Positions 6,906 to 32,075 of a stretch of DNA of 42,398 nucleotides are shown in pieces. Source of the stretch: a virus; IMG/VR virus record IMGVR_UViG_3300009156_000050, positions 1 to 42,398 of that record; one strand, written 5' to 3'. The stretch's first letter is position 1. Each line of letters begins with the position of its first letter. Under the pieces are notes generated by a model. That model was given only the letters and a program-made list of their open reading frames with translations. It did no database searches and was not told the origin of the DNA. A program made the position numbers and the translations under genes.

Positions 6906-7685
6906 TTATGATCCAGAACTATCCAGCCCCATTACTTCTTCTTCGTAACTCCGATTGACACGTCCGATTTCGGCTTCGATCTCGAGTTTGTCGTTACGAA
7001 TGAACACGACGTCGATATCGTCCGTACCGTGTCCGAACTTCGTCAAGTTGACTAAACCGACAATATCATCGGGATTCTCGATGCGTCTATCGTCTTCGTC
7101 GGCCAGTACTCCGTCGATGCCGTAGAAAGTGAGTACCACTTGTCTGTAATCGGTCGCGTTCTCGCTGAACTCGTCTTGATGGATGACATATGGAGCTTCC
7201 CTACTCCGTCCTGCGAGCTCTCTGGGGAAATCCCAATTGTCGTTTTTGTCTTTCGGTCGAGGCCTAGGAAATTGACCGGTCGATCTTGTCGTGTTGTCGG
7301 TACGATCCGTATATACCGTAGGTTCTGTGACGGGCACCGGCGGCCTCAGAGGTCGTCCGGCTTCGGCAGTCGAATATCCCTTCTCTTCGACGATATCTTC
7401 GACTGACGGCTTGTCCTGCGCCTTGGCCGCGGCTACCTTCTGGTTGTAGGCTTCACGGATCTTCTCGATGTCCTTCTCGGCCTCGGCGTAGGCCTCAGCC
7501 CGAAGCTTCTCTCGCTGGTAGCGATATCCCCGCCAGAAACCGAATCCGAAACCGAAAGCGGTACCAGTGAGAAACCACCCGACTGCCGCTCCGTGAGAGA
7601 TCTGTCCCATCTCTCGGGTTGCGTTGGCCACATCCTCAATATGATTGGCCACCTGCCCGACTACGTTCGCCGTCGTCGATTCCAT
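6906..7685 (-). CDS. Membrane-anchored coiled-coil protein
   Basis: A 259-residue protein. A Gly/Phe-rich hydrophobic segment (about residues 33-53) is followed by a charged coiled-coil (about 55-95), a Pro/Thr-rich linker (about 110-150) and a conserved-looking C-terminal domain (Y-V-I-H-Q-D-E-F...V-V-L-T-F-Y-G-I-D-G-V-L-A-D-E-D). Its start overlaps the end of the DUF6353-like gene by 25 bases, with AAGGGG inside that gene. The pairing of such proteins with DUF6353 is familiar from other actinophages. The role is unknown. Confidence 0.7.
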   Translation of the reverse strand: MESTTANVVGQVANHIEDVANATREMGQISHGAAVGWFLTGTAFGFGFGFWRGYRYQREKLRAEAYAEAEKDIEKIREAYNQKVAAAKAQDKPSVEDIVEEKGYSTAEAGRPLRPPVPVTEPTVYTDRTDNTTRSTGQFPRPRPKDKNDNWDFPRELAGRSREAPYVIHQDEFSENATDYRQVVLTFYGIDGVLADEDDRRIENPDDIVGLVNLTKFGHGTDDIDVVFIRNDKLEIEAEIGRVNRSYEEEVMGLDSSGS

Positions 7686-8602
7686 GTCAATTTCCCCTTA
7701 TCTATTGTGTCGAGCTTATCCCAGATTACTCCATCGACATTGAAGTCGAGCAGAATGGACCCTTCTTTCAGATTGACGAAATCGTTAGCCTGCTCCGACC
7801 CATTCCAAATATCGAAGCTGATGTAATTGTCGGTCGATCCGTCGTCCGACCTGATCCAACCGACCACTTGACCGGCCTGAGATCTCTCCATCCCGAGCAG
7901 GTCGTAGACTTCGTTCAAGAACACGTGGCCATAGGCACTGAGTCGATCGTTCGCCCAGTTTTGTTGACCCATGAGAAATGCTCTGTTGTAGTCTGGATTT
8001 CGGTCCCAATTACGACATGTTTCGTCGAAGAAACGTGCATACACCGATGGCTCGAGATTTACTTGCTTGACTTTCTTCTTTCGGTTCGTTTCTGGATTGA
8101 CGATTTCCACTTCCTCGACGCCATATCGGAAATCTCGATCTTGCTCTTCGCCGTACTTCTCCACCACCGCGGCACGGTAACTCCTGAACCCCCGATCGAG
8201 AGCCGTATAGGCTGCAGTCAGAGCAGCATTGCGCGAGGTCAGAATATTATGAGAGCTCGTCAAAGCGGCGATCGAAAGTCCACCTACGATAACGGCCGGA
8301 GCGTATAGCTTAGCGATCTTGTAACCGGTTTGCCAATAAAGAACCTTGACGTCGTGATTAAGGTCGTCTTCCCTGTATCCCTCGTATTTTTCGTCGTCGT
8401 TCACCATCACGTCAAACAGTTCACGCTTGACTTTTGCTTCCTTTACGACCTCATCGGCCTTCAGAGTGGCTCGGCTAGCTAGAACAGCGCTTCCTACCAC
8501 GCCCACGATACCCGCAACGAAAAGGACCTGTGGTGAGGCCTTCTGTGCGAGTAAAGCATGATGGGCGATCTTCTGTCCGATCACCTGTGGAACGAGACTC
8601 AT
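7661..8602 (-). CDS. DUF6353-like membrane protein, copy A
   Basis: A 313-residue protein with two hydrophobic segments: V-L-F-V-A-G-I-V-G-V-V-G-S-A-V-L-A near residue 27 and Y-A-P-A-V-I-V-G-G-L-S-I-A-A-L near 100. The conserved block R-N-A-A-L-T-A-A-Y-x-A-L-D-R-G-F-R-S-Y-R and a C-terminal L-D-F-N-V-D-G-V-I-W-D-K follow. From memory this fits DUF6353, phage membrane proteins of unknown function. AAGGAG precedes the ATG. A shorter relative lies at 10718-11575, so the phage has two copies. Confidence 0.8.
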   Translation of the reverse strand: MSLVPQVIGQKIAHHALLAQKASPQVLFVAGIVGVVGSAVLASRATLKADEVVKEAKVKRELFDVMVNDDEKYEGYREDDLNHDVKVLYWQTGYKIAKLYAPAVIVGGLSIAALTSSHNILTSRNAALTAAYTALDRGFRSYRAAVVEKYGEEQDRDFRYGVEEVEIVNPETNRKKKVKQVNLEPSVYARFFDETCRNWDRNPDYNRAFLMGQQNWANDRLSAYGHVFLNEVYDLLGMERSQAGQVVGWIRSDDGSTDNYISFDIWNGSEQANDFVNLKEGSILLDFNVDGVIWDKLDTIDKGKLTWNRRRRT

Positions 8603-9919: not shown

Positions 9920-9946
9920 TGACATCTCCTATCTAGATTAGTTTCA

Positions 9947-9971
9947 TTATAGGGCATGTTTACGCTGCGAA
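9947..9971 (-). promoter_or_regulatory. 25-bp promoter element, copy 1
   Basis: TCGCAG, 13 bases with C at position 7, TATAAT, then GAAAC. It precedes the 9656-9919 gene. Confidence 0.8.
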
Positions 9972-10548: not shown

Positions 10549-10800
10549 CTATGGTAATTCTCCTCTTGGATCTTGCAGCTTGATCGATATCACTTCTCTG
10601 ATGCCGTCGATGTACTCGTAGACCTCGATCGGCTCCATTCCGAGTTCTTGAAGGAGATTTATCGCCGCCTCAATTTCGTACTTGACCTCGGCGACGGCAC
10701 TCGTTGTGCAAGCCCCTTCAATCGGCCAGAAATTTCGAGTGATAATTCGAATATGGATGATGGGCGAAGTCGATTGCCATGCACGGTCTCTGATCCGGAG
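10549..10800 (-). other. Reading frame without a start; possible +1 frameshift extension
   Basis: The minus-strand frame is open for 83 codons from 10800 to a TAG at 10549, but has no early ATG, GTG or TTG. The part after the upstream stop reads E-G-A-C-T-T-S-A-V-A-E-V-K-Y-E-I-E then E-L-G-M-E-P-I-E-V-Y-E-Y-I-D-G-I-R-E, which looks like genuine protein. The 10718-11575 gene ends G-A-T-T-G-A; slipping forward one base there (+1) would continue into this frame. Alternatives are an ATT start, a short product from the internal ATG (29 residues), or a sequence error. Confidence 0.4.
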
Positions 10801-11575
10801 TCATCGTTGCGGAGATCTTGACCTCGACTCGATCGTTCGCATTCCAGCCGACATGATCCGAATATGACGTCGGAGGCAAGCCGAGCTCGTCATAGAACTC
10901 GCTCAAGCTGACATGCATGAAGTTGAGCAACTCGTGATTGACCTTGTTCTCGGCTCGTTTGATCTCCTCGACCGTGCTCTGGAAATATCGCCCACTGTGC
11001 AGATCGAAGCAGAGAACTTCACCGGCTCCGGCGATGATGACTTCTCGATTGTTCGGAGGATGCTTGGTCACTCTCTCCTGAGCGATATCGTCTCTGACCT
11101 TCTGCTCTTCCCGTTCACCGATCCTGTCGAACACCTTCCGCTTGTACTCCTGCAGAGATCTCTCCGAGATTGCCGAAGCGACCGTAAGGGCGGCGATCTT
11201 CGACGATGTGATCCTGTGCGCCATGACGATGCAGGTGATCGTGACGGCACAAGTGGTCGCCGGTGGAATATACGCCTTCCAAACCAGCTTGGCCTTCCTG
11301 GTCCTTGTCAGCTTCTCGTCGAATGGAGCCTTGACATCATCTTCGGTCAGTTTTTCGTCCGAAGTCGCCCATTGCTTTGCAACTTCTTCCGCCTTCTTCG
11401 CCGCCATCTTTCGCTCTTCTTCGGCGATCATGTCTGCAGCTCTGAATGTGGCTCGTCCTGTCAAGACCGCGGTTGCAACGGTTCCGACCACCGCGATACT
11501 CGACAAAATGGTAGGAGAATTCTCATTCAGGAGGAACTTTGCTTGCTGAGCTTTTTGAGCCAACCCAAGAATCAT
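10718..11575 (-). CDS. DUF6353-like membrane protein, copy B
   Basis: A 285-residue protein laid out like the copy at 7661-8602: an N-terminal hydrophobic segment (S-S-I-A-V-V-G-T-V-A-T-A-V-L-T-G-R-A-T-F), a second near residue 105 (A-T-T-C-A-V-T-I-T-C-I-V-M-A), a serially similar I-A-A-L-T-V-A-S-A-I-S-E-R-S-L-Q-E-Y block, and V-N-H-E-L-L-N-F-M-H-V-S-L-S-E-F-Y-D-E-L-G-L before the final domain with V-G-W. Inferred paralogue; role unknown. GAGAGG precedes the ATG. It follows the 48-residue membrane peptide gene, and both are read from promoter copy 2. Confidence 0.7.
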   Translation of the reverse strand: MILGLAQKAQQAKFLLNENSPTILSSIAVVGTVATAVLTGRATFRAADMIAEEERKMAAKKAEEVAKQWATSDEKLTEDDVKAPFDEKLTRTRKAKLVWKAYIPPATTCAVTITCIVMAHRITSSKIAALTVASAISERSLQEYKRKVFDRIGEREEQKVRDDIAQERVTKHPPNNREVIIAGAGEVLCFDLHSGRYFQSTVEEIKRAENKVNHELLNFMHVSLSEFYDELGLPPTSYSDHVGWNANDRVEVKISATMTPDQRPCMAIDFAHHPYSNYHSKFLAD

Positions 11576-11732: not shown

Positions 11733-11809
11733 AAAAAATAAAACGATAAGGGCGCCGCCCCCGATCATCTGCCAGGGGCGGATAGCTCCCAAGACGGGAG
11801 CTTCACCTC
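11733..11809 (-). ncRNA. Two-hairpin leader with U-rich end
   Basis: Downstream of promoter copy 2 the minus strand forms two strong hairpins: AGCTCCC/GGGAGCT (11784-11802, loop of 5) and CCGCCCC/GGGGGCGG (11755-11781). A T-rich run at 11733-11744 follows, and then the AGGAGG of the next gene. The second hairpin plus U-run looks like an intrinsic terminator inside a 5' leader, so transcription into the 48-residue and DUF6353-like genes may be attenuated. It could instead simply end read-through from upstream. Confidence 0.6.
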
Positions 11810-11834
11810 ACTAAAGGCCAAGTTATCGCTGCGA
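11810..11834 (-). promoter_or_regulatory. 25-bp promoter element, copy 2
   Basis: TCGCAG, 13 bases with C at position 7, TTTAGT. The upstream hexamer starts directly after the TAA of the 11835-11942 gene. Confidence 0.65.
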
Positions 11835-11962: not shown

Positions 11963-12033
11963 AAAAAAAAGAGAGAGCCTGAAGGGTGCCGATGTCCTTC
12001 ATTGCAATGTCCTTAAGGCTGGACAACTCTCTC
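11963..12033 (-). ncRNA. 71-nt structured RNA element, copy A
   Basis: It begins GAGAGAG directly after the TATAAT-like hexamer of promoter copy 3 and ends CTCTCTC plus eight Ts. Inside are a stem TGTCC/GGACA closing the loop AGCCTTAA, a palindrome ATTGCAAT, and a stem TGAAGG/CCTTCA closing a loop with CATCGGCAC. A near twin lies at 12575-12645 with matching base changes in both stems. The AGCCT of the loop can also pair with AGGCT just before the closing arm, an alternative terminator fold. Likely an attenuator, riboswitch-like leader or processed small RNA. Confidence 0.7.
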
Positions 12034-12058
12034 ATAAGAGGGCATGTATTCTCTGCGA
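12034..12058 (-). promoter_or_regulatory. 25-bp promoter element, copy 3
   Basis: TCGCAG, 13 bases with C at position 7, TCTTAT. It starts immediately after the TAA of the 12059-12277 gene and drives RNA copy A. Confidence 0.65.
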
Positions 12059-12574: not shown

Positions 12575-12645
12575 AAAAAAAGAGAGAGCCTGAGGGCGTG
12601 CCGATGACCCTCATCGCGATATCGTTAAGGCTCGATGACTCTCTC
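12575..12645 (-). ncRNA. 71-nt structured RNA element, copy B
   Basis: Same layout as copy A: GAGAGAG directly after promoter copy 4, then ATCG/CGAT closing the identical loop AGCCTTAA, palindrome ATCGCGAT, TGAGGG/CCCTCA closing a loop with CATCGGCAC, and CTCTCTC followed by seven Ts. Compared with copy A, paired positions change together (G-C to A-U, C-G to G-C, A-U to G-C), while loops are conserved, which supports an RNA structure under selection. Confidence 0.7.
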
Positions 12646-12670
12646 ATAATAGGGTAGGTAATTTCTGCGA
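12646..12670 (-). promoter_or_regulatory. 25-bp promoter element, copy 4
   Basis: TCGCAG, 13 bases with C at position 7, TATTAT. It drives RNA copy B and the genes at 12279-12554 and 12059-12277. Confidence 0.75.
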
Positions 12671-12675
12671 AAATG

Positions 12676-12731
12676 AAAAAAAGTGAAGAGCGGGGCCCTC
12701 ACAACCCCCTATCGGACGGATGACGCTCTTC
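12676..12731 (-). ncRNA. Candidate stand-alone small RNA (about 56 nt)
   Basis: It begins GAAGAGCG directly after promoter copy 5 and closes with CGCTCTTC, then AC and seven Ts. The next promoter (copy 4) starts only 5 bases later. There is no ribosome site and no gene between, so promoter plus terminator appear to make a short RNA. A frame starting at the ATG that overlaps the -10-like hexamer lacks a ribosome site and would run through the terminator and next promoter. Confidence 0.65.
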
Positions 12732-12756
12732 ATTAAAGGGTAGGGAATTTCTGCGA
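12732..12756 (-). promoter_or_regulatory. 25-bp promoter element, copy 5
   Basis: TCGCAG, 13 bases with C at position 7, TTTAAT. It sits 5 bases after the stop of the 12762-13214 gene. Confidence 0.7.
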
Positions 12757-13214: not shown

Positions 13215-13262
13215 ACTTCTTACTCCTTTCGATATGGTAACAATATGTGACAACAACTTCTC

Positions 13263-13287
13263 ATAATAGGCTATGTTTTGTTGGCGA
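13263..13287 (-). promoter_or_regulatory. 25-bp promoter element, copy 6
   Basis: TCGCCA (diverged), 13 bases with C at position 7, TATTAT. It precedes the 12762-13214 gene. Confidence 0.65.
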
Positions 13288-15365: not shown

Positions 15366-15426
15366 AAAAAATATAAAGAGACGGCTCACGCTTTTACAGC
15401 CGGTGAGTTACTTCCTGTCTCTTTCT
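15366..15426 (-). ncRNA. Structured leader RNA with terminator-like end
   Basis: Starting 2 bases after promoter copy 7, AAAGAGAC pairs with GTCTCTTT before a T-rich run. Inside, CTCAC can pair with GTGAG, or CGGCT with AGCCG; the two inner pairings exclude each other. An intrinsic terminator for the gene upstream already stands at 15457-15484, so this second terminator-like element behind the promoter is not needed for upstream termination. It could attenuate the nine-gene operon that follows. Confidence 0.6.
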
Positions 15427-15451
15427 ATAAAAGGCTAAGTTTTTCCTGCGA
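15427..15451 (-). promoter_or_regulatory. 25-bp promoter element, copy 7
   Basis: TCGCAG, 13 bases with C at position 7, TTTTAT. It is the only array promoter seen before the operon 15344 to 13307. Confidence 0.65.
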
Positions 15452-15456
15452 TCGAC

Positions 15457-15484
15457 AAAAAAGGAAAGCCTGTGTAGACTCTCC
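15457..15484 (-). terminator. Intrinsic terminator
   Basis: Stem GGAGAGTC/GGCTTTCC with loop TACACA and six Ts, after the 15494-15658 gene. Confidence 0.85.
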
Positions 15485-15493
15485 TTTCTGGAA

Positions 15494-15658
15494 CTACTCC
15501 TCGGTGGGCTTGTCAGCCTTCCGCTTGTTCCACAGAGAACGGACCTTGCCTCCGGTGAACCGAACGGCGTCGACAGTGGCGCTTGCAGCGACACTACCGG
15601 CCGTCGTTGCGGCTCCGAAGACGAATCCGCCCTTGGCTAGAACAGCATACGGTGGCAT
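15494..15658 (-). CDS. 54-residue small protein
   Basis: A peptide with a Gly/Ala-rich, weakly hydrophobic half (A-K-G-G-F-V-F-G-A-A-T-T-A-G-S-V-A-A-S-A) and a basic tail (K-V-R-S-L-W-N-K-R-K-A). AGGAGG stands 4 bases before the ATG. It has its own promoter (copy 8) and terminator (15457-15484). No family recognised; possibly membrane-associated. Confidence 0.65.
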   Translation of the reverse strand: MPPYAVLAKGGFVFGAATTAGSVAASATVDAVRFTGGKVRSLWNKRKADKPTEE

Positions 15659-15680
15659 ATTGCCTCCTTGTAGTGGTTTC

Positions 15681-15705
15681 ATTATAAGACGTGTATTTTC
15701 TGCGA
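15681..15705 (-). promoter_or_regulatory. 25-bp promoter element, copy 8
   Basis: TCGCAG, 13 bases with C at position 7, TATAAT, then GAAACC; drives the 15494-15658 gene. Confidence 0.85.
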
Positions 15706-15713
15706 TTTCCAGC

Positions 15714-15742
15714 AAAAAAAGAGAGCCTATGTAGACTCTCCT
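15714..15742 (-). terminator. Intrinsic terminator
   Basis: Stem GAGAGTC/GGCTCTC around TACATA with seven Ts, about 30 bases after the 15772-15897 gene. Confidence 0.85.
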
Positions 15743-15771
15743 TTTCGAAGCCGTCGAGCCTCGGGAATTAT

Positions 15772-15897
15772 TCACATTGTTGCTGTTCGCATCCGTCGTC
15801 GAACGGCGTCGGCCGTGAGCAAGTACAGGACTGCCGCGAGGAAGACCAGACGTCTCACCGTCACCTGTCGACGAACGAACGAAAGCATCTTGCGCAT
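15772..15897 (-). CDS. 41-residue basic membrane peptide
   Basis: A peptide with a strongly basic start (M-R-K-M-L-S-F-V-R-R-Q-V-T-V-R-R), a hydrophobic stretch (L-V-F-L-A-A-V-L-Y-L-L, about residues 17-27) and a basic end. AAGGAG precedes the ATG. The frame sits alone between promoter copy 9 and a terminator. Role unknown. Confidence 0.6.
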   Translation of the reverse strand: MRKMLSFVRRQVTVRRLVFLAAVLYLLTADAVRRRMRTATM

Positions 15898-15920
15898 AAT
15901 CGCTCCTTGGTTGAGGTTTC

Positions 15921-15945
15921 ATAATAGGCGAGGTAATATCTGCGA
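15921..15945 (-). promoter_or_regulatory. 25-bp promoter element, copy 9
   Basis: TCGCAG, 13 bases with C at position 7, TATTAT, then GAAACC; drives the 15772-15897 gene. Confidence 0.8.
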
Positions 15946-15946
15946 C

Positions 15947-15977
15947 AAAAAAGGAAAGCGCTTGTTAGGCGCCTTCC
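15947..15977 (-). terminator. Intrinsic terminator overlapping a stop codon
   Basis: Stem GGAAGGCGC/GCGCTTTCC with six Ts. The TAA of the 15965-16156 gene lies in the hairpin, so the last codons form its 5' arm. Confidence 0.85.
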
Positions 15978-16156
15978 TTCGTCGAGATGTACGCAATCTC
16001 GGGGAAAATATCTCCGACGATCTGCGTCGCGATCTTGGCCTTCCGCTCCTTCGTCTTTGCGGAGTCGAACTCGTCCCGTTGTTCGGGCGTGATCTCCTTC
16101 GCGATGACACGAATGACGCGGAGAGCCGTGATCGGATGCTTGATAATGCGAAGCAT
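15965..16156 (-). CDS. Small hypothetical protein
   Basis: A 63-residue protein: L-R-I-I-K-H-P-I-T-A-L-R-V-I-R-V-I-A-K-E-I-T-P-E-Q-R, amphipathic helices, then E-R-K-A-K-I-A. The motif E-R-K-A-x-I-A also appears in the cassette protein at 16867-17034 (E-R-K-A-E-I-A), perhaps a distant relation. AAAGGA precedes the ATG; monocistronic cassette. Confidence 0.65.
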   Translation of the reverse strand: MLRIIKHPITALRVIRVIAKEITPEQRDEFDSAKTKERKAKIATQIVGDIFPEIAYISTKEGA

Positions 16157-16186
16157 TTTGTTCCTTTCTGTTGTGTTTTATCTCTC

Positions 16187-16211
16187 ACTATGAAACATGT
16201 ATTTTCTGCGA
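16187..16211 (-). promoter_or_regulatory. 25-bp promoter element, copy 10
   Basis: TCGCAG, 13 bases with C at position 7, CATAGT; drives the 15965-16156 gene. Confidence 0.75.
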
Positions 16212-16221
16212 TTTTGCAGGC

Positions 16222-16252
16222 AAAAAAGGAAAGTCCTTGTAGACTCTCCTTT
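16222..16252 (-). terminator. Intrinsic terminator
   Basis: Stem GGAGAGTC/GACTTTCC around TACAAG with six Ts, just after the 16259-16495 gene. Confidence 0.85.
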
Positions 16253-16258
16253 CTGGAA

Positions 16259-16495
16259 CTACTTCCAGACGAACACTTGCTGATCGCGGTGAAGCCCGAT
16301 GGCCCGATGCCGTATGGGATGATCATGATTGGCTTCGATCGCCAGCTTGAGCTCGAAGAGGTCGTTCTTCCATTCGTAGATATTACGAATGGTCGCTCGA
16401 CTCTCGAGATCGATCTGGATCAGATCGCCGATCTGAAGATCCTCCACACGGGCAACGTGCTGGGTGAGCTTCTTTCTGCGAAACAACTTAAGCAT
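16259..16495 (-). CDS. Small beta-rich hypothetical protein
   Basis: A 78-residue protein with a basic start (M-L-K-L-F-R-R-K-K-L) and V-E-D-L-Q-I-G-D-L-I-Q-I-D-L, R-A-T-I-R-N-I-Y-E-W-K-N-D-L-F-E-L-K-L-A. The G-D-x-I-x-I pattern suggests a small beta barrel. It resembles the cassette protein at 19101-19328 in plan (basic start, N-D-K-I-R-V-Q, aromatic middle). Monocistronic; AAAGGAG before the ATG. Confidence 0.65.
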   Translation of the reverse strand: MLKLFRRKKLTQHVARVEDLQIGDLIQIDLESRATIRNIYEWKNDLFELKLAIEANHDHPIRHRAIGLHRDQQVFVWK

Positions 16496-16516
16496 TTTTC
16501 TCCTTTAGTAGGTTTC

Positions 16517-16541
16517 ATTATGAAACATGTATTTTCTGCGA
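16517..16541 (-). promoter_or_regulatory. 25-bp promoter element, copy 11
   Basis: TCGCAG, 13 bases with C at position 7, CATAAT, then GAAACC; drives the 16259-16495 gene. Confidence 0.8.
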
Positions 16542-16550
16542 TTTGCAGGC

Positions 16551-16580
16551 AAAAAAGAGAGCCAGTGTAGACTCTCCTTT
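16551..16580 (-). terminator. Intrinsic terminator
   Basis: GAGAGTC pairs with GGCTCTC, six Ts follow; after the 16597-16785 gene. Confidence 0.85.
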
Positions 16581-16596
16581 TCGATCCTGGTAGGGA

Positions 16597-16785
16597 TCAG
16601 TCCTTGATCAGGCCGCTGACGAGCCCCTCGCGCTCCTTCTGCAACTCCTTGATTTTTTCTTGCAACTCTTTGATTTCTTCGTCGATATCGTCGATCCGAC
16701 TTTTATCAATAGAGTCGCTCAACCAAATGGATGCTTTGAGAACGCCTATACCGGCTCCTTTAGCAGCTTTTCCAATTTTGGACAT
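16597..16785 (-). CDS. Small coiled-coil protein
   Basis: A 62-residue protein: Gly/Ala-rich N-terminal helix, then a clear coiled coil (D-I-D-E-E-I-K-E-L-Q-E-K-I-K-E-L-Q-K-E-R-E, about residues 33-53). Probably oligomeric; role unknown. AAAGGAG precedes the ATG; monocistronic cassette. Confidence 0.7.
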   Translation of the reverse strand: MSKIGKAAKGAGIGVLKASIWLSDSIDKSRIDDIDEEIKELQEKIKELQKEREGLVSGLIKD

Positions 16786-16805
16786 GATACTCCTTTGTAG
16801 GTTTC

Positions 16806-16830
16806 ACTATAGGGAAGGTAATATCTACGA
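16806..16830 (-). promoter_or_regulatory. 25-bp promoter element, copy 12
   Basis: TCGTAG, 13 bases with C at position 7, TATAGT, then GAAACC; drives the 16597-16785 gene. Confidence 0.75.
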
Positions 16831-16858
16831 AAAAAAGGAAAGTCCGTGTGGACTCTCC
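16831..16858 (-). terminator. Intrinsic terminator
   Basis: Stem GGAGAGTCC/GGACTTTCC with loop ACAC and T-run; after the 16867-17034 gene. The run of Ts abuts promoter copy 12. Confidence 0.85.
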
Positions 16859-16866
16859 TCTTCGAA

Positions 16867-17034
16867 TCAGTCCTCCTTGCAGTTACACTGCGGAGTCATC
16901 GAGACTCGGATGATGGCGATCTCGTTGGCGATCTCAGCCTTGCGCTCGGGCGACGTATTTACACGTCCGTGCTCGTGCACAAGATTGTCGATTGCCTCAT
17001 AGATGCGCTTATCGATGTCCTCGATTGCACTCAT
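16867..17034 (-). CDS. 55-residue protein with C-terminal Cys pair
   Basis: A peptide beginning M-S-A-I-E-D-I-D-K-R-I-Y-E-A-I-D, helical, ending P-Q-C-N-C-K-E-D; the C-x-C could bind metal. AAAGGAG precedes the ATG. Own promoter (copy 13) and terminator. No family recognised. Confidence 0.65.
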   Translation of the reverse strand: MSAIEDIDKRIYEAIDNLVHEHGRVNTSPERKAEIANEIAIIRVSMTPQCNCKED

Positions 17035-17063
17035 AGTGGTCTCCTTTTGGTAGGATTGGTTTC

Positions 17064-17088
17064 ATTATAAGACATGTAATATCTGCGA
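17064..17088 (-). promoter_or_regulatory. 25-bp promoter element, copy 13
   Basis: TCGCAG, 13 bases with C at position 7, TATAAT, then GAAACC; drives the 16867-17034 gene. Confidence 0.85.
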
Positions 17089-17116
17089 AAAAGGAAAGTC
17101 CTTGTAGACTCTCCTT
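17088..17116 (-). terminator. Intrinsic terminator
   Basis: Stem GGAGAGTC/GACTTTCC around TACAAG with five Ts that run into promoter copy 13; after the 17122-17316 gene. Confidence 0.8.
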
Positions 17117-17121
17117 CTTGA

Positions 17122-17316
17122 TTACAACTCAATTTTTGGAATGTTGATAACGCGTCCATCGACCAAGGTGACGTCGCCAGCGATATCCTCGTTGAAACAC
17201 TCCACTGCGGCTTCCCAAAAAGCGAGGTCACGCTCTTCTTTAGTCGTAGTGGAAATGTTCTTCCGATTCTCTTCGATGACGGCTTTCATCTTGGCCGTTG
17301 AATCTTTGATACTCAT
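17122..17316 (-). CDS. Small hypothetical protein
   Basis: A 64-residue protein with a basic helical N-terminus, E-R-D-L-A-F-W-E-A-A-V-E-C-F-N-E-D-I and a C-terminal beta pair (V-T-L-V-D-G-R-V-I-N-I-P). I chose the ATG at 17316 (AAAGG upstream) over a TTG at 17322. Monocistronic cassette. Confidence 0.65.
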   Translation of the reverse strand: MSIKDSTAKMKAVIEENRKNISTTTKEERDLAFWEAAVECFNEDIAGDVTLVDGRVINIPKIEL

Positions 17317-17340
17317 TTCCAATCCTTTCGTTGTGGTTTC

Positions 17341-17365
17341 ATTATAGGCTCGGTAATATCTGCGA
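17341..17365 (-). promoter_or_regulatory. 25-bp promoter element, copy 14
   Basis: TCGCAG, 13 bases with C at position 7, TATAAT, then GAAACC; drives the 17122-17316 gene. Confidence 0.85.
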
Positions 17366-17394
17366 AAAAGGAAAGCGCATGGTTAGCGCCTTCC
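17365..17394 (-). terminator. Intrinsic terminator overlapping a stop codon
   Basis: Stem GGAAGGCGC/GCGCTTTCC with five Ts. The TAA of the 17383-17619 gene lies in the loop, as at 15947-15977. Confidence 0.85.
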
Positions 17395-17619
17395 CTGTAG
17401 GTGTTGATCCGCAAAGCGGTTCAATACGATCTTGCCGAACTGGTCGAGCTCCATGTCCTTGTTGTATACGTGATTGGCCATGGTGTTCAGCCAAGCGATG
17501 TCCTGCTTGTGGGAATCCTTGAGGATATTCCTTTCGCGACGGACTCGGTTGTACCGAACCACCATTGCCGCTCCGTAAAACGGCGACGTGTATGCAAGAG
17601 CAGCATCAATTAAAGTCAT
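17383..17619 (-). CDS. Small hypothetical protein
   Basis: A 78-residue protein: an N-terminal weakly hydrophobic segment (L-I-D-A-A-L-A-Y-T-S-P-F-Y-G-A-A-M-V-V) followed by a basic, helical region (R-Y-N-R-V-R-R-E-R-N). Possibly membrane-associated. AGGAG precedes the ATG; monocistronic cassette. Confidence 0.65.
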   Translation of the reverse strand: MTLIDAALAYTSPFYGAAMVVRYNRVRRERNILKDSHKQDIAWLNTMANHVYNKDMELDQFGKIVLNRFADQHLQGRR

Positions 17620-17642
17620 ATCAAACTCCTGTTTGTGGTTTC

Positions 17643-17667
17643 ATTATAGGACCGGTAATTTCTGCGA
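17643..17667 (-). promoter_or_regulatory. 25-bp promoter element, copy 15
   Basis: TCGCAG, 13 bases with C at position 7, TATAAT, then GAAACC; drives the 17383-17619 gene. Confidence 0.85.
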
Positions 17668-17696
17668 AAAACTAAAGCCCCTGTAGGGGCCTTAGT
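17667..17696 (-). terminator. Intrinsic terminator
   Basis: Stem ACTAAGGCCCC/GGGGCTTTAGT with a 4-base loop and five Ts; after the 17697-17888 gene. Confidence 0.85.
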
Positions 17697-17888
17697 CTAT
17701 TGCTCTGCCTTCAGATATTTGATCCTCTGATCGAGGGCATCTGCTGTAGCTAGAAGACCGTCTCGAGTATCTTGCAAATGCTTGATCTCCAGCTCAACGC
17801 CGTTTTCTTTCAAGAATTTGCCCGCATCCTCGAGATTCTCTCCGAGCGTATGAAACAGTATTTCCCACGATGGTAAAGGGTTTTCCAT
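17697..17888 (-). CDS. Small helical hypothetical protein
   Basis: A 63-residue acidic, helical protein: L-G-E-N-L-E-D-A-G-K-F-L-K-E-N-G-V-E-L-E-I-K then a second helix with A-L-D-Q-R-I-K-Y-L-K. Coiled-coil character. AAAGGAG precedes the ATG; monocistronic cassette. Confidence 0.65.
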   Translation of the reverse strand: MENPLPSWEILFHTLGENLEDAGKFLKENGVELEIKHLQDTRDGLLATADALDQRIKYLKAEQ

Positions 17889-17910
17889 TATTCTCCTTTA
17901 GACAGATCTC

Positions 17911-17935
17911 ATTATACACCGTGTTTTTCATGCGA
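17911..17935 (-). promoter_or_regulatory. 25-bp promoter element, copy 16
   Basis: TCGCAT, 13 bases with C at position 7, TATAAT; drives the 17697-17888 gene. Confidence 0.75.
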
Positions 17936-17966
17936 AAAAAGAGAGCCCATGTTCTGGGCCCTCCTT
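17935..17966 (-). terminator. Intrinsic terminator
   Basis: Stem GGAGGGCCCA/TGGGCTCTC, short loop, six Ts; after the 17971-18234 gene. Confidence 0.85.
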
Positions 17967-17970
17967 TTGA

Positions 17971-18234
17971 TCAGTCGTCTTCCACGATGTCGTCGAGGGA
18001 TATCTCCATCAATCCAGTCTTGAGCAATCCTCTTGCTCGATACGTCGGCATGAGTCCGTTCGCGTAGAACGTCGGATATGAGCTGCCTTTCTCTCGGTCC
18101 GGGTTCTCTGCATAGCAGACAACTACCCAGTCCAAGAGAATATCGCCTGGCTCAAAATCTTCGCCTTCCGCGATTACTTCTCTCAGGACGGTCTCGATCT
18201 TGTCGGATTGTATCTTGTCTTGATGAATAGACAT
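17971..18234 (-). CDS. Conserved phage protein (DUF7213-like)
   Basis: An 87-residue protein: L-L-D-W-V-V-V-C-Y-A-E-N near residue 33, a variable loop, then L-M-P-T-Y-R-A-R-G-L-L-K-T-G-L near 61. A D-W-V-V-V strand followed by R-A-x-G-L-L is typical of a small actinophage family that I remember as DUF7213; tentative. The ATG at 18234 has AAAGGAGG upstream; a longer frame would include the promoter. Monocistronic cassette. Confidence 0.65.
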   Translation of the reverse strand: MSIHQDKIQSDKIETVLREVIAEGEDFEPGDILLDWVVVCYAENPDREKGSSYPTFYANGLMPTYRARGLLKTGLMEISLDDIVEDD

Positions 18235-18267
18235 TTTCCTCCTTTCGATATGGTGGATTAGATTCTC

Positions 18268-18292
18268 ATAATAGGGGAAGGAATATCTACGA
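18268..18292 (-). promoter_or_regulatory. 25-bp promoter element, copy 17
   Basis: TCGTAG, 13 bases with C at position 7, TATTAT; drives the 17971-18234 gene. Confidence 0.75.
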
Positions 18293-18294
18293 CG

Positions 18295-18326
18295 AAAAAG
18301 GAGAGCCCATGTTTCAGGCTCTCTCT
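18295..18326 (-). terminator. Intrinsic terminator
   Basis: Stem GAGAGCC/GGCTCTC with a 9-base loop and five Ts; directly after the 18330-18698 gene. Confidence 0.85.
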
Positions 18327-18329
18327 TTC

Positions 18330-18698
18330 TCAATCTAAATATCCGAACGCTAGTAGTGGACCTTCACGACGATCATCCATGATGAAGACGGCTCCGTTTT
18401 TCTCGTACCAGGCTCTCAGCTCTTCATTGCTTTGTATCGCGTCGTCGCCGACATCAACATCAAATATCTTTGCTCTGATAAGCAACGTAAGTTCGTGCTT
18501 GTGGCAGTACTCGTCGATTTCTCGTAGGAGTTCTGTTCCTTCGCCCTTACGTCGATTCGTCGAACGCATGTCATACAGATGTGCGTGCGAGCGATCGTCT
18601 AGCGGTATAGCAATGTTGGCCGAAGCGCCCTTGTGCTTGAAATATACGAGCCAGGTCTTCTCCGGATTTTCTTCGTGAGGAACGGTCTTTACAATCAT
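18330..18698 (-). CDS. GNAT-family acetyltransferase
   Basis: A 122-residue protein with the acetyl-CoA loop R-R-K-G-E-G (about residues 49-54) preceded by the strand H-L-Y-D-M-R-S and followed by helix T-E-L-L-R-E-I-D-E-Y-C; later E-L-R-A-W-Y-E-K-N-G-A-V-F, the usual C-terminal GNAT signature. It would transfer an acetyl group to an unknown amine: a protein, metabolite or antibiotic. It is the most recognisable enzyme in the cassette array and a candidate host-modifying protein. AAGGAG precedes the ATG; own promoter and terminator. Confidence 0.8.
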   Translation of the reverse strand: MIVKTVPHEENPEKTWLVYFKHKGASANIAIPLDDRSHAHLYDMRSTNRRKGEGTELLREIDEYCHKHELTLLIRAKIFDVDVGDDAIQSNEELRAWYEKNGAVFIMDDRREGPLLAFGYLD

Positions 18699-18719
18699 GT
18701 CGCTCCTTAGATAGATTTC

Positions 18720-18744
18720 ATTATAGGCGAGGTAATATCTGCGC
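18720..18744 (-). promoter_or_regulatory. 25-bp promoter element, copy 18
   Basis: GCGCAG, 13 bases with C at position 7, TATAAT; drives the GNAT gene. Confidence 0.75.
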
Positions 18745-18783
18745 CTTGATGCGAAATATCCCCCCGGGGTTTTTTGGGAATTG
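18745..18783 (-). other. Inserted spacer with CCCCGGGG palindrome
   Basis: Other cassettes have at most about 10 bases between terminator U-run and promoter; here there are about 39. The spacer holds CCCCGGGG, an ATATTTCGCATC stretch reminiscent of the promoter hexamer, and a C/A-rich end. It may be a scar of a lost cassette. On the plus strand the palindrome is followed by six Ts, weakly terminator-like. Confidence 0.4.
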
Positions 18784-18813
18784 AAAAAAGGAAAGTCCTT
18801 GTAGACTCTCCTC
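18784..18813 (-). terminator. Intrinsic terminator
   Basis: Stem GGAGAGTC/GACTTTCC around TACAAG with six Ts; after the 18821-18997 gene. Confidence 0.85.
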
Positions 18814-18820
18814 TTTGAAA

Positions 18821-18997
18821 CTAGGCTTCCAACTCGGCGGTCTCTGTTTCGTACTCACGCTGGTCTCGACGATCCATGTACTTCATGTATCCGTAAGCAG
18901 CCACGATCAGAGCTGCGTTGAGAGCAACGTACTGAACGGGGTGGTTCCGGATCCAGTTGTACTGGACCTGTTGAGATTTGCGGTAAAGCTCGAACAT
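18821..18997 (-). CDS. 58-residue membrane peptide
   Basis: A peptide with an N-terminal polar helix (M-F-E-L-Y-R-K-S-Q-Q-V-Q-Y-N-W-I-R), a hydrophobic stretch (Y-V-A-L-N-A-A-L-I-V-A-A-Y-G-Y, about residues 23-37) and an acidic tail. Probable single-pass membrane protein. AGGAG precedes the ATG; own promoter (copy 19) and terminator. Confidence 0.65.
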   Translation of the reverse strand: MFELYRKSQQVQYNWIRNHPVQYVALNAALIVAAYGYMKYMDRRDQREYETETAELEA

Positions 18998-19025
18998 TTG
19001 AATCTCCTGTTAGAGGGATGGTTTC

Positions 19026-19050
19026 ATTATAAAACATGTAATTTCTGCGA
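19026..19050 (-). promoter_or_regulatory. 25-bp promoter element, copy 19
   Basis: TCGCAG, 13 bases with C at position 7, TATAAT, then GAAACC; drives the 18821-18997 gene. Confidence 0.85.
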
Positions 19051-19060
19051 TTTAGCAGGC

Positions 19061-19091
19061 AAAAAAGGAAAGTCTGTGTAGACTCTCCTTT
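19061..19091 (-). terminator. Intrinsic terminator
   Basis: Stem GGAGAGTC/GACTTTCC around a TACACA-type loop with six Ts; after the 19101-19328 gene. Confidence 0.85.
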
Positions 19092-19100
19092 CGAACTTAC

Positions 19101-19328
19101 CTAGTTCTCGTAGAGTTCTAGTTTTGTGTTCTTTGGGACGGTAAGCGTACCCATGTACGAACCCCGTCCGCCGTTGTACGAGTGGTACCAGAGTTCGAAC
19201 GTAATCTCCTCGCCGATCCAAATGTTATGGATAACGGCGACGATATTCTGAACTCTGATCTTGTCGTTCGGCTTCACGCGATTCGCTTTTGCGTAACGCT
19301 TCTTGTCCTTGTTGAACAAATTGAACAT
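19101..19328 (-). CDS. Small beta-rich hypothetical protein
   Basis: A 75-residue protein: basic start (M-F-N-L-F-N-K-D-K-K-R-Y-A-K-A-N-R-V), then K-P-N-D-K-I-R-V-Q-N-I-V and a run of beta strands (F-E-L-W-Y-H-S-Y-N-G-G-R-G-S-Y-M-G-T-L-T-V). AAAGGAG precedes the ATG; monocistronic cassette. No family recognised. Confidence 0.65.
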   Translation of the reverse strand: MFNLFNKDKKRYAKANRVKPNDKIRVQNIVAVIHNIWIGEEITFELWYHSYNGGRGSYMGTLTVPKNTKLELYEN

Positions 19329-19349
19329 CTAACTCCTTTGGTAGGTTTC

Positions 19350-19374
19350 GTTATACGACGTGTTATTTCTGCGA
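19350..19374 (-). promoter_or_regulatory. 25-bp promoter element, copy 20
   Basis: TCGCAG, 13 bases with C at position 7, TATAAC, then GAAACC; drives the 19101-19328 gene. Confidence 0.75.
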
Positions 19375-19402
19375 AAAAAAATGAGTCCATGTTTGAATTG
19401 CG
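19375..19402 (-). other. Probable decayed promoter copy
   Basis: Between terminator 19403-19440 and promoter copy 20 the minus strand reads TCGCAA, 13 bases with an A-A-A-C-A-T-G core like the array promoters, then TCATTT and a T-run. It matches the element except for the ruined -10 hexamer, so it looks like a remnant of a duplicated or lost cassette. Confidence 0.45.
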
Positions 19403-19440
19403 AAAAATATGAAAGGCCGCGTGGTTAGCGGCCCCTCATA
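19403..19440 (-). terminator. Intrinsic terminator
   Basis: Long stem (ATGAGGGGCCGC/GCGGCCTTTCAT) with a 7-base loop and a T-rich tail; about 25 bases after the 19466-19741 gene. Confidence 0.85.
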
Positions 19441-19465
19441 TCTGATTCTCTCTCTAGAACGTCCT

Positions 19466-19741
19466 TTATCTCGGACGCATGACCATGCCCATCGCTCTCG
19501 ACACGATTACGTTGACGTGCTCGTGCCTGATGACCATGACGATCCCCAGGAGATTGGCAGCGATGAGAGCGACCGTGTCTTTACTCATAGGATCAGATGT
19601 TTCTTCACTCTTCATCCTATGCAGCTTGATGATCACTTCCAACGTCTTGTTGTACTCCTCGGAACCAATCGGATGGTTCTTCAGTTCACGAACAGCACGT
19701 TCGAGCTCGAGGTCGATAATGCTTGGCGATCGTGAGAACAT
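19466..19741 (-). CDS. Small helical protein with hydrophobic segment
   Basis: A 91-residue protein: amphipathic N-terminal half (I-D-L-E-L-E-R-A-V-R-E-L-K-N-H-P...Y-N-K-T-L-E-V-I-I-K-L-H) and a C-terminal hydrophobic segment (T-V-A-L-I-A-A-N-L-L-G-I-V-M-V-I-R-H-E-H, about residues 57-76). I recall this plan in actinophage proteins of unknown role. AAAAGGAGG precedes the ATG; first cassette of the array as transcribed. Confidence 0.7.
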   Translation of the reverse strand: MFSRSPSIIDLELERAVRELKNHPIGSEEYNKTLEVIIKLHRMKSEETSDPMSKDTVALIAANLLGIVMVIRHEHVNVIVSRAMGMVMRPR

Positions 19742-19764
19742 AGACCTCCTTTTGATAGAGTCTC

Positions 19765-19789
19765 ATTATAGGCCAAGTTTCACTTGCGA
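19765..19789 (-). promoter_or_regulatory. 25-bp promoter element, copy 21
   Basis: TCGCAA, 13 bases with C at position 7, TATAAT. Rightmost copy found. It overlaps the last codons of the 19780-20016 gene and drives 19466-19741. Confidence 0.75.
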
Positions 19790-20016
19790 TTGGGAGTCTC
19801 TATCTCAGAAGGCTCTACTCGAAAGACCACTTGCTTTTTGAACGCGATTTTGTCCGGATAATCGTCCAGTATGAGCGAATATACCGTCTTTTCCTCTTTT
19901 TTGGTCACGATGATCGTACCGGTGTAATCCCGGAATCTCGACGATACATACCCTCTCAAGATAAATCCCGCCATCAGGCCGAAATAGAAGATAACGACGT
20001 ATATTATGATCGCCAT
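19780..20016 (-). CDS. Membrane protein at end of tail operon
   Basis: A 78-residue protein with an N-terminal membrane segment (I-I-I-Y-V-V-I-F-Y-F-G-L-M-A-G-F-I-L, about residues 3-20) followed by a small domain (T-I-I-V-T-K-K-E-E-K-T-V-Y-S-L-I-L-D-D-Y-P-D-K-I-A-F-K-K-Q-V-V-F-R-V). The D-Y-P-x-x-I-x-F-K-x-x-V-x-F-x-V ending is familiar from other actinophage proteins of unknown role. It starts 3 bases after the gp37-like gene, so it belongs to the structural operon. Confidence 0.7.
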   Translation of the reverse strand: MAIIIYVVIFYFGLMAGFILRGYVSSRFRDYTGTIIVTKKEEKTVYSLILDDYPDKIAFKKQVVFRVEPSEIETPNRK

Positions 20017-20019
20017 CGC

Positions 20020-29814: not shown

Positions 29815-30627
29815 TTATTCGCTGATATTCGTGGATGAGACTTTGTATGTATCTGCATCCAAATATGTAGTATCTGCATCGTCGATCTGAAAGGTAGTAC
29901 TGTCAATCATAGTAATATACGTATCCGACTCATCAATAGCAGACCAAATACCACCACCATTATCGACGATAAGAAGGGCGCCCAAATATCCGAAGAATTC
30001 AGCGACTTCTTGAATAGATGGAAGACGTGGGTTGTTGGTACTCGTCCCGTAGAGCGTATCTTCCAACGCTTTCAAAATCTCTGGAGGTGTTACGAGCGAA
30101 TCGATAGAGATATGAACCGTTGGCCTATATCGATCAAGCGGCTTCGGCGGAGTTCCACTCAAAGACCAAACGAACTCGATCGGATCGAGTGAATCCTTGA
30201 CGGTGTCGAACGAATAAGAATTAGGATTAGCAAGAACATTATAGAGAATGTGAATCTTGTAACCGCGATCCAAACCTTCGAGATCATTACCAATCCTTGA
30301 TCGGTATGACAGATTGAAACTCTTTGCTTGTTGATCGTAGTAATCGAGTCCAGGAGATGATCCGACTGTGGCAATTCCAGTAAGTGAATCAAGCTCGTCG
30401 GGATAAGTGTATGCCTTTAGTCTACCGGAAAAATCCCCCGGGATAAAATTCTCCAAATATTTTACCCCATCGAGGTAGAATGCCTTAATTTCAGCATTGG
30501 AATCTGACTCTACACCGGTAAGTCCATTCCAAACGACCACCTTACCGTCATGCAGATAAAGGACGCCACGATCAATACCGGCTTGGTAAAATCGTTCACC
30601 AACTTGATCCCAGACAAGAGTTGCCAC
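29815..30627 (-). CDS. Second major-tail-protein-like protein
   Basis: A 270-residue paralogue of the protein at 31206-32075. Both start W-D-Q-V-G-E-R-x-Y-x-x-G-x-D-x-G-V-L-Y, share W-N-G-L-T, K-Y-L, A-x-T-Y-P-x-E, F-x-L-S-Y-R-x-R-x-G-N-D-x-E-G and G-Y-K-x-H. The C-terminus differs: this copy ends in a polar Asp/Thr-rich tail (D-A-D-T-T-Y-L-D-A-D-T-Y). It lies after the tail chaperone, next to the fibre genes. It may form a specialised part of the tube or hold fibres. GTG start after AGGAGG. Confidence 0.8.
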   Translation of the reverse strand: MATLVWDQVGERFYQAGIDRGVLYLHDGKVVVWNGLTGVESDSNAEIKAFYLDGVKYLENFIPGDFSGRLKAYTYPDELDSLTGIATVGSSPGLDYYDQQAKSFNLSYRSRIGNDLEGLDRGYKIHILYNVLANPNSYSFDTVKDSLDPIEFVWSLSGTPPKPLDRYRPTVHISIDSLVTPPEILKALEDTLYGTSTNNPRLPSIQEVAEFFGYLGALLIVDNGGGIWSAIDESDTYITMIDSTTFQIDDADTTYLDADTYKVSSTNISE

Positions 30628-31205: not shown

Positions 31206-32075
31206 TTAAGCTCGACCCGAAGTCCAAGCCGTTCCGTTCCAATACATTTCACCACCCGCTCCTGCGGTCGATCCCTGAACGTACTGACCTGTCGTCCAAG
31301 CCGAGGACGGAGATGCGGTAACGCCTTTGCTAGTGGCATCGGCTGCATTTGACGGAGGAGTTGATCCGCCAGGAGTCCAAGTTCCCGGAATTCCGGCGTT
31401 TGCTCCTGTAGCTGGAGAAGCTCCTCCTTCAAAGAGAGCGATTACTGCATCCGGAGTCGGAAGAGCAGGCTCGGTTGCACCCAGTCCGTACAGCAGATCC
31501 TCGAGTGACTGAAGATCAGTCGGATCCACGACGCTGGAATCGATGACGATCAGAGAAGTCGGCTTGTAGCCTGTAACCGCAACCGGCGTGGTCGTGACTT
31601 CCCAGCTGAACGCAATTGCCTCCGGGGAGTCGTTGATCGTGGCATAAGCCTTTTCGGATGGGGCAGCCTGGCAACCGTAGACCAAATGCAGCTTGTAGCC
31701 GAAATCTGTCCCTTCGACATCGTTGCCCAATCGAGTCCTGTAGCTCAGGCCAAAGATCTTTCGACCCTGCTGGCCAATGGCTAGGCCCGGCGAAGGAAGC
31801 GCAGTACCATCGCACTGTCCGAATTCCTCCGGATATGTAAACGCTTCGATCGTCGCACCGAACTCCTCGGCGGAAATCAGGTTCAGATACTTGATGTTGT
31901 CGGCGTACTGCGGGTTAGGTTCGGCACCAGACGGCGATTCAGTGACAGTAGTAAGACCATTCCAAGCGAAACCGAGACTATATACACCCTGATCGTCAGG
32001 AATGTACAGAACTCCATGATCTACACCGGTTTCGTACAATCGCTCGCCAACCTGGTCCCAAGTCAAAGGGGCCAT
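31206..32075 (-). CDS. Major tail protein
   Basis: A 289-residue tail-tube subunit. The common domain (about 1-215) is followed by a C-terminal module (P-G-T-W-T-P-G-G-S-T-P-P, A-S-P-S-S-A-W-T-T-G-Q-Y-V, Y-W-N-G-T-A-W), a decoration-like domain that I know from other actinophage virion proteins. It directly precedes the chaperone gene, the standard place. AAAGGAAG precedes the ATG. Unlike most genes here, its sense strand has no ATATT word, which fits strong selection on codons in an abundant protein. Confidence 0.88.
   Translation of the reverse strand: MAPLTWDQVGERLYETGVDHGVLYIPDDQGVYSLGFAWNGLTTVTESPSGAEPNPQYADNIKYLNLISAEEFGATIEAFTYPEEFGQCDGTALPSPGLAIGQQGRKIFGLSYRTRLGNDVEGTDFGYKLHLVYGCQAAPSEKAYATINDSPEAIAFSWEVTTTPVAVTGYKPTSLIVIDSSVVDPTDLQSLEDLLYGLGATEPALPTPDAVIALFEGGASPATGANAGIPGTWTPGGSTPPSNAADATSKGVTASPSSAWTTGQYVQGSTAGAGGEMYWNGTAWTSGRA

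Follow-up and report, generated by a model that had tools for sequence, protein, structure and literature searches.

How is a run of small genes, each with expression signals of its own, transcribed and kept interchangeable in a phage genome? The question is raised by a cassette array in a soil phage represented by virus record IMGVR_UViG_3300009156_000050 of IMG/VR. The window, meaning the whole stretch of DNA analysed, is that entire record of 42,398 bases. It has siphovirus tail, capsid and terminase genes (identity of the terminase to its counterparts in Streptomyces and Gordonia phages is at most 85%), and the array lies on its minus strand, immediately after the last tail genes. We consider it likely that the array is an accessory region whose units are transcribed independently and can be exchanged; their reader is probably a phage-encoded single-chain two-barrel RNA polymerase resembling QDE-1 and YonO. 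This polymerase would read the promoter of each unit, and the transcript would begin at the G directly after TATAAT, encode a single small protein or structured RNA, and end at an intrinsic terminator. Co-infecting phages would exchange units homologously, with whole units inserted, deleted or moved and the others undisturbed, because each is self-contained and its flanks resemble those of its neighbors.

Fourteen units with their own signals

The array occupies 15461–19789 (−), from a first promoter at 19763–19789 to a last terminator at 15461–15486, and comprises 14 units, each with a promoter, ribosome site, small open reading frame (ORF) of 41–122 amino acids (aa), and intrinsic terminator. 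Terminators, sought as a stem-loop plus T-run in 15390–20019, numbered 14, versus a mean of 0.11 (maximum 2) in 100 dinucleotide shuffles. The promoter motif, searched over 17 positions with up to three mismatches tolerated, occurred 14 times on the array coding strand and never in the shuffles. Neither promoter motifs nor terminators were found on the opposite strand of the array, and the remainder of the window, examined over 32 kb, had no copy of the motif. These counts bear out the serial small-gene units proposed by an earlier note on this DNA, made from the sequence alone. A standard sigma-70/terminator scan showed no excess (five sigma-70 consensus matches, with 6.1 expected), because stem extension probably consumes the T-run and because the promoters are not sigma-70-like.

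Other parts of that description needed amendment. The terminators, which it took to be related in sequence, mostly share the stem GGAGAGTC..GACTTTCC, but several deviate (GAGAGCC..GGCTCTC, CTAAGGCCCC..GGGGCTTTAG). Its array started at 15494, which leaves out the last terminator, and the promoter series resumes downstream (9.9–13.3 kb), at 13287, 12756, 12670, 12058, 11834 and 9970. At least three of these downstream units (12756, 12670 and 12058) carry short structured RNAs in place of ORFs. Three ORF starts were corrected (c05, 18234; c08, 17316; c14, 15658), and both the phage-polymerase-like promoters and the non-coding RNA genes had been overlooked.

The array could instead be a conventional operon, late or early, with its repeats as decoration: one long transcript would cover all the genes, and the stem-loops would serve in processing or stability. 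The array genes are indeed all co-directional, and no terminator separates the tail genes from the first promoter (19742–19779). Yet every ORF is followed by a canonical stem-loop and U-run and then at once by a promoter motif, while the closing stems of the RNA units, which reach from promoter to T-run, would be senseless within a long transcript. We judge an operon of this kind very improbable.

A promoter that travels with a candidate polymerase

Collected sites, 532 in all, gave the consensus TCGCA-N4-TTAC-N6-TATAAT-GA, with conserved positions spanning T(−25) to A(+2) and a near-invariant GA at +1/+2. The gap between TCGCA and TTACA is purine- and A-rich, and that between TTACA and TATAAT is GC-rich. 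The A after TTAC, conserved at 90%, was outside the search pattern and therefore lends the motif independent support. No −35 conservation was seen among the 532 sites, whose upstream sequence shows just the T-run that ends the previous terminator; the −35 hexamer at 16–18 nt of a sigma-70/sigma-A promoter is absent. By its sequence, the array promoter is not sigma-70-like.

Relatives encode, near the genome end, a protein of 876–915 aa that is catalogued as ‘HTH (helix-turn-helix) DNA-binding’ and labeled ‘RNA-dependent RNA polymerase’ in RefSeq. The sequence SGADFDGD, which fits the catalytic DxDGD pattern, is invariant in two alignments of this family. A weak Pfam RdRP match was found in 19 of 23 members, and N-terminal HTHs resembling sigma region 4 in 22 of the 23, with a further HTH at the C-terminus. 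Searching solved structures by sequence returned HTH and helical matches only, so a fold comparison was required. In an AlphaFold2 model (predicted local distance difference test 77, predicted template modeling score 0.59), residues 232–721 align to QDE-1 with Z 13.0 over 358 aa; the model also aligns to plant RDR2, P74-26 gp62 (Z 11.8) and P23-45 gp64 (Z 11.7). Foldseek matches were weak, the best being RDR2 at E 3.5e-4. The model places a two-barrel core in one chain, and we predict that the protein is a single-chain two-barrel RNA polymerase, which would synthesize RNA on DNA. A T7-like polymerase was set aside, as the protein has the two-barrel catalytic motif. Family members also bear the labels ‘excise’ (LilHuddy), ‘structural protein’ (ReqiPoco6), ‘putative transcription factor D5’ (D_HF4_2) and ‘tail fiber protein’ (contig89).

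Motif and polymerase occur together. The polymerase is encoded by 39 of 50 contigs with the motif, and 31 of 34 contigs picked only by their polymerase carry the motif, always on one strand (the reversed-motif control gave 4 hits). Scanning the viral collection, we found the exact motif in at least 119 stretches versus 8 for the reversed motif; none of the 8, several of which are short, encodes the polymerase. The association holds in phages of Arthrobacter, Gordonia (Tanis), Streptomyces (RosaAsantewaa) and Lactococcus, the last with a GC content of 33% and a polymerase only 37–41% identical. Copies of TTTACA..TATA(A/G)T number 9 in Lactococcus phage P078 and 11 in CHPC971, all forward, where 0 or 0.04 would be expected; the four comparison phages sk1, TP901-1, phiC31 and SPbeta have no copy of the motif. 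This co-occurrence suggests that the phage polymerase probably reads the array promoters.

RNA units point to a probable transcription start

In the RNA units, the first base after TATAAT opens the helix that closes the RNA ahead of the T-run. A terminal helix of at least 7 bp was present at 53 of 79 RNA-type sites. Among these 53, the 5′-most helix starts no more than 4 nt from the base after TATAAT in 43; none has it starting at +5 to +11, the zone expected for a sigma-type start. One pseudoknotted RNA has ten unit copies in Arthrobacter AU phages. Its outer stem starts at the base after TATAAT, with 100% of cells paired and three covarying pairs. In the pseudoknot model, 10 of 24 pairs are changed on both sides, compared with 5.5 in shuffles (none of 500 as high), and slid controls reached at most 54% paired. 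P078 RNA units likewise have a stem from the base after TATAAT. In the window, units B and C are related, and direct reading of the sequence reveals compensatory changes in their hairpins.

Since the terminal stem abuts TATAAT, transcripts should start there; a sigma-spaced start, 6–8 nt past the −10 element, would leave terminal-stem bases untranscribed. The stem positions thus speak, indirectly, against sigma-70/sigma-A spacing, and we infer a start at, or a few nt from, the G after TATAAT.

These positions also bear on a second account, in which the host RNA polymerase, carrying its principal sigma factor, takes TATAAT as the −10 element and is aided by a phage activator bound to TCGCA/TTAC, much like MotA at the middle promoters of T4. 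In favor of this account are the perfect match of TATAAT to a −10 hexamer, an upstream element placed where an activator might stand in for a −35 element, and a shared HTH protein that could be that activator. But the RNA-unit stems start 6–7 nt too early for a sigma-type start, the near-invariance of GA at +1/+2 does not fit, and the motif occurs across hosts of two phyla in company with this polymerase and not in phages without it. We regard host transcription with an activator as unlikely.

Several points nonetheless weigh against the phage polymerase as reader. Of the 50 contigs with the motif, 11 do not encode the polymerase, all at most 46.5 kb and probably fragments, and the 42-kb window record itself has no polymerase gene; it seems to stop before the part of the genome where relatives encode one. 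Co-occurring phages share more genes, and therefore another shared factor could be the reader. YonO is the biochemically proven enzyme, and its SPbeta genome is without such a motif. The motif itself was used to gather the sites, which makes conservation at its fixed positions partly circular; the 79 RNA-type sites are not independent of one another; and TATAAT by itself is still usable by a host sigma factor.

A TATAATG upstream of yonK (NC_001884 59873, minus strand) looks similar by eye, but ranked only 14th (half-motif) in SPbeta with the actinophage profile, and we do not claim it. It falls roughly where the YonO start site was published.

Whole units are gained, lost and exchanged

Close relatives differ by whole units. 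Makai carries a 307-bp promoter-gene-terminator unit that Truckee, 97% identical, does not have. A 319-bp unit of Giantsbane is absent from Tokki, and its protein is related to Makai gp38, which is in another slot. LilHuddy and Phaby are distinguished by a 119-bp RNA unit, and where they share promoter and terminal stem, the RNA interior between these differs. Junctions of the insertions, deletions and moves fall in the promoter/terminator flanks. Because whole units differ between close relatives with junctions in the flanks, the idea of cassette exchange is supported, as the earlier note had anticipated from the repeated flanks; exchange may proceed by homologous recombination.

Conserved order and content in all relatives, which that note had named as grounds for abandoning the idea, was not seen: contigs whose adjoining tail gene is 86% identical share only 3 of the 14 cassettes (1, 5 and 11), with their order kept. 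Cassette 1, F05, F01 and F02 form a recurring scaffold with a variable set between them. Cassette 1 has relatives in 85 loci, and most other cassettes have none in the loci compared.

Almost all cassette products are without known relatives. Family searches with ten of the small proteins gave one solid PHROG match (function not known), a weak GNAT match and a weak DUF7213 match. The products may have an accessory role directed at the host or its defenses. A more specific functional reading, compatible with transcription by the phage polymerase, is that the variable cassettes form a host-takeover or counter-defense arsenal like the SPO1 module. Small proteins of no known function turn over highly at a fixed place there, under strong separate expression signals; however, no product matched a known inhibitor, and cassette 1, with its wide conservation, looks core. 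We offer the arsenal as a tentative possibility.

The AU relatives are predicted to be lytic (PMC5679793), and at the place of the array AU phages were noted to have numerous small membrane proteins, along with large gaps between genes (PMC5679793, PMC9753662). The explanation given here is absent from both accounts.

Relation to known systems

Accessory genes with their own promoter are known from lambdoid morons and the SPO1 host-takeover module, and morons have their own terminator as well. Morons are single insertions using host promoters. The units described here share with morons the flanking promoter and terminator and the precise presence or absence between relatives; unlike morons, at least 14 stand in series with a phage-type promoter.

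The non-virion RNA polymerase of phiKZ starts at the G of TATG at late promoters (PMC4666361). This is likewise a phage two-barrel enzyme starting right after a T-A-T element rather than at sigma spacing, as we infer for the array. It differs in being multi-subunit, in using TATG alone without TCGCA/TTAC, and in having no cassette array. At phiKZ middle promoters, the motif AAanTTACc found near −24 is similar to the TTAC element, perhaps by chance (PMC4666361).

P23-45 gp64 and P74-26 gp62 resemble the modeled polymerase in their single-chain two-barrel fold, and in P23-45 a phage motif was assigned to the single-chain polymerase through co-location (PMC10770324). They differ in their GC-rich promoter motif, Thermus host and early genes, and the aligned part is ∼13–15% identical in sequence. 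The SPbeta enzyme YonO is a single-chain phage RNA polymerase of about equal size (PMC5467207). It transcribes one long late operon whose promoter its authors left to be determined, and a non-coding RNA missing from the annotation maps to its start site (PMC5467207). The array motif, being absent from SPbeta, does not match a YonO-type late-operon promoter.

Start-associated repeats, described in Microbacterium phage clusters EC, EF, EG and EI and mycobacteriophage clusters K and O, are also conserved motifs repeated upstream of small genes (PMC7302621). They have other sequences, and no paired terminators, RNA units or polymerase link are described for them (PMC7302621).

We found no description of the array, promoter or polymerase of these phages in the open-access literature. 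We lean towards the view that a phage lineage of Actinomycetota and Lactococcus has its own sigma-independent single-chain polymerase whose main job would be to transcribe an exchangeable array of protein and RNA cassettes with one gene each; its promoter (T−25 CGCA..TTACA..TATAAT G+1 A) would be a new class for the enzyme family, and the array would hold several undescribed RNA families. The promoter recognized by single-chain two-barrel RNA polymerases is known in few phages. Phages in culture (Arthrobacter Gordon and Makai, Gordonia Tanis, Lactococcus P078) now offer candidate promoters by the hundred together with a matching enzyme, which brings the promoter question to the bench. The array would amount to a modular expression system built by nature, in which anti-host or anti-defense functions could be sought, and to a supply of new structured RNAs missed by gene annotation.

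Feature coordinates and further observations

Table 1. Promoters, ORFs, terminators and RNA units of the array and its downstream continuation, in window coordinates.
Feature	Position	Strand	Description	Evidence
Promoter 1	19763..19789	−		motif match, 2 mismatches
Cassette 1 ORF	19466..19741	−	91 aa, one hydrophobic segment, PHROG 5818, conserved first cassette	PHROG E 4e-20
Terminator 1	19409..19439	−		terminator test
Promoter 2	19348..19374	−		motif match
Cassette 2 ORF	19101..19328	−	75 aa, 0 relatives in compared loci	
Terminator 2	19066..19089	−		terminator test
Promoter 3	19024..19050	−	perfect match	motif match
Cassette 3 ORF	18821..18997	−	58 aa	
Terminator 3	18789..18812	−		terminator test
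Promoter 4	18718..18744	−		motif match
Cassette 4 ORF	18330..18698	−	122 aa, weakly GNAT-acetyltransferase-like	Pfam PF13673 E 0.004, below cut-off
Terminator 4	18301..18323	−		terminator test and standard scan
Promoter 5	18266..18292	−		motif match
Cassette 5 ORF	17971..18234	−	87 aa, DUF7213-like (below cut-off), common to L247/L249/L258	
Terminator 5	17940..17964	−		terminator test
Promoter 6	17909..17935	−		motif match
Cassette 6 ORF	17697..17888	−	63 aa	
Terminator 6	17672..17695	−		terminator test
Promoter 7	17641..17667	−	perfect match	motif match
Cassette 7 ORF	17383..17619	−	78 aa	
Terminator 7	17370..17394	−		terminator test
Promoter 8	17339..17365	−	perfect match	motif match
Cassette 8 ORF	17122..17316	−	64 aa from ATG	
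Terminator 8	17093..17114	−		terminator test
Promoter 9	17062..17088	−	perfect match	motif match
Cassette 9 ORF	16867..17034	−	55 aa	
Terminator 9	16835..16860	−		terminator test
Promoter 10	16804..16830	−		motif match
Cassette 10 ORF	16597..16785	−	62 aa, probable coiled coil	
Terminator 10	16556..16577	−		terminator test
Promoter 11	16515..16541	−		motif match
Cassette 11 ORF	16259..16495	−	78 aa, common to L247/L249/L258	
Terminator 11	16227..16250	−		terminator test
Promoter 12	16185..16211	−		motif match
Cassette 12 ORF	15965..16156	−	63 aa	
Terminator 12	15951..15979	−		terminator test
Promoter 13	15919..15945	−		motif match
Cassette 13 ORF	15772..15897	−	41 aa, basic, one hydrophobic segment	
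Terminator 13	15719..15742	−		terminator test
Promoter 14	15679..15705	−		motif match
Cassette 14 ORF	15494..15658	−	54 aa	
Terminator 14	15461..15486	−	end of contiguous array	terminator test
Further promoter	13261..13287	−	upstream of conserved ORF (family F05)	motif match
Promoter of RNA unit A	12730..12756	−		motif match
RNA unit A	12683..12731	−	terminal stem from base after TATAAT	
Promoter of RNA unit B	12644..12670	−		motif match
RNA unit B	12582..12645	−	multi-hairpin RNA	
Promoter of RNA unit C	12032..12058	−		motif match
RNA unit C	11971..12033	−	related to unit B, compensatory stem changes	direct reading of sequence
Further promoter	11808..11834	−		motif match
Further promoter	9944..9970	−	upstream of conserved ORF (family F02)	motif match

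Elsewhere in the window, a paralogous gene pair of PHROG 2152 (function not known) lies close together at 7661–8602 and 10718–11575, and the genes at 29815–30627 and 31206–32075 both match one major tail protein family (PHROG 2645).

Rfam gave no match near the gathering score in the window or Makai, and only tRNAs in 13 loci, one of them inside a cassette. An RNA that combines a T-loop-like hairpin with a covarying loop-loop pseudoknot (pairs ACGAA/TTCGT, ACTAA/TTAGT and CTATCAA/TTGATAG) and is without an Rfam match recurs at L131 31616, L129 29817, L001 7257(−), L106 3836, L010 1461, L033 3249 and L090 11303. Other RNA units consist of two to three tandem short-hairpin copies (L025 10979, L029 2834(−), L186 763, L098 958(−), L032 13027, L046 4261(−) and L114 9366), a layout as if for binding several copies of a ligand or protein. 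Cassettes with tRNA or tRNA-like pieces were seen at L001 7069(−), L131 31522, L103 1759, L077 181 and L260 24006; some of the pieces are a T-arm alone on an outer stem, and the pieces may be decoys.

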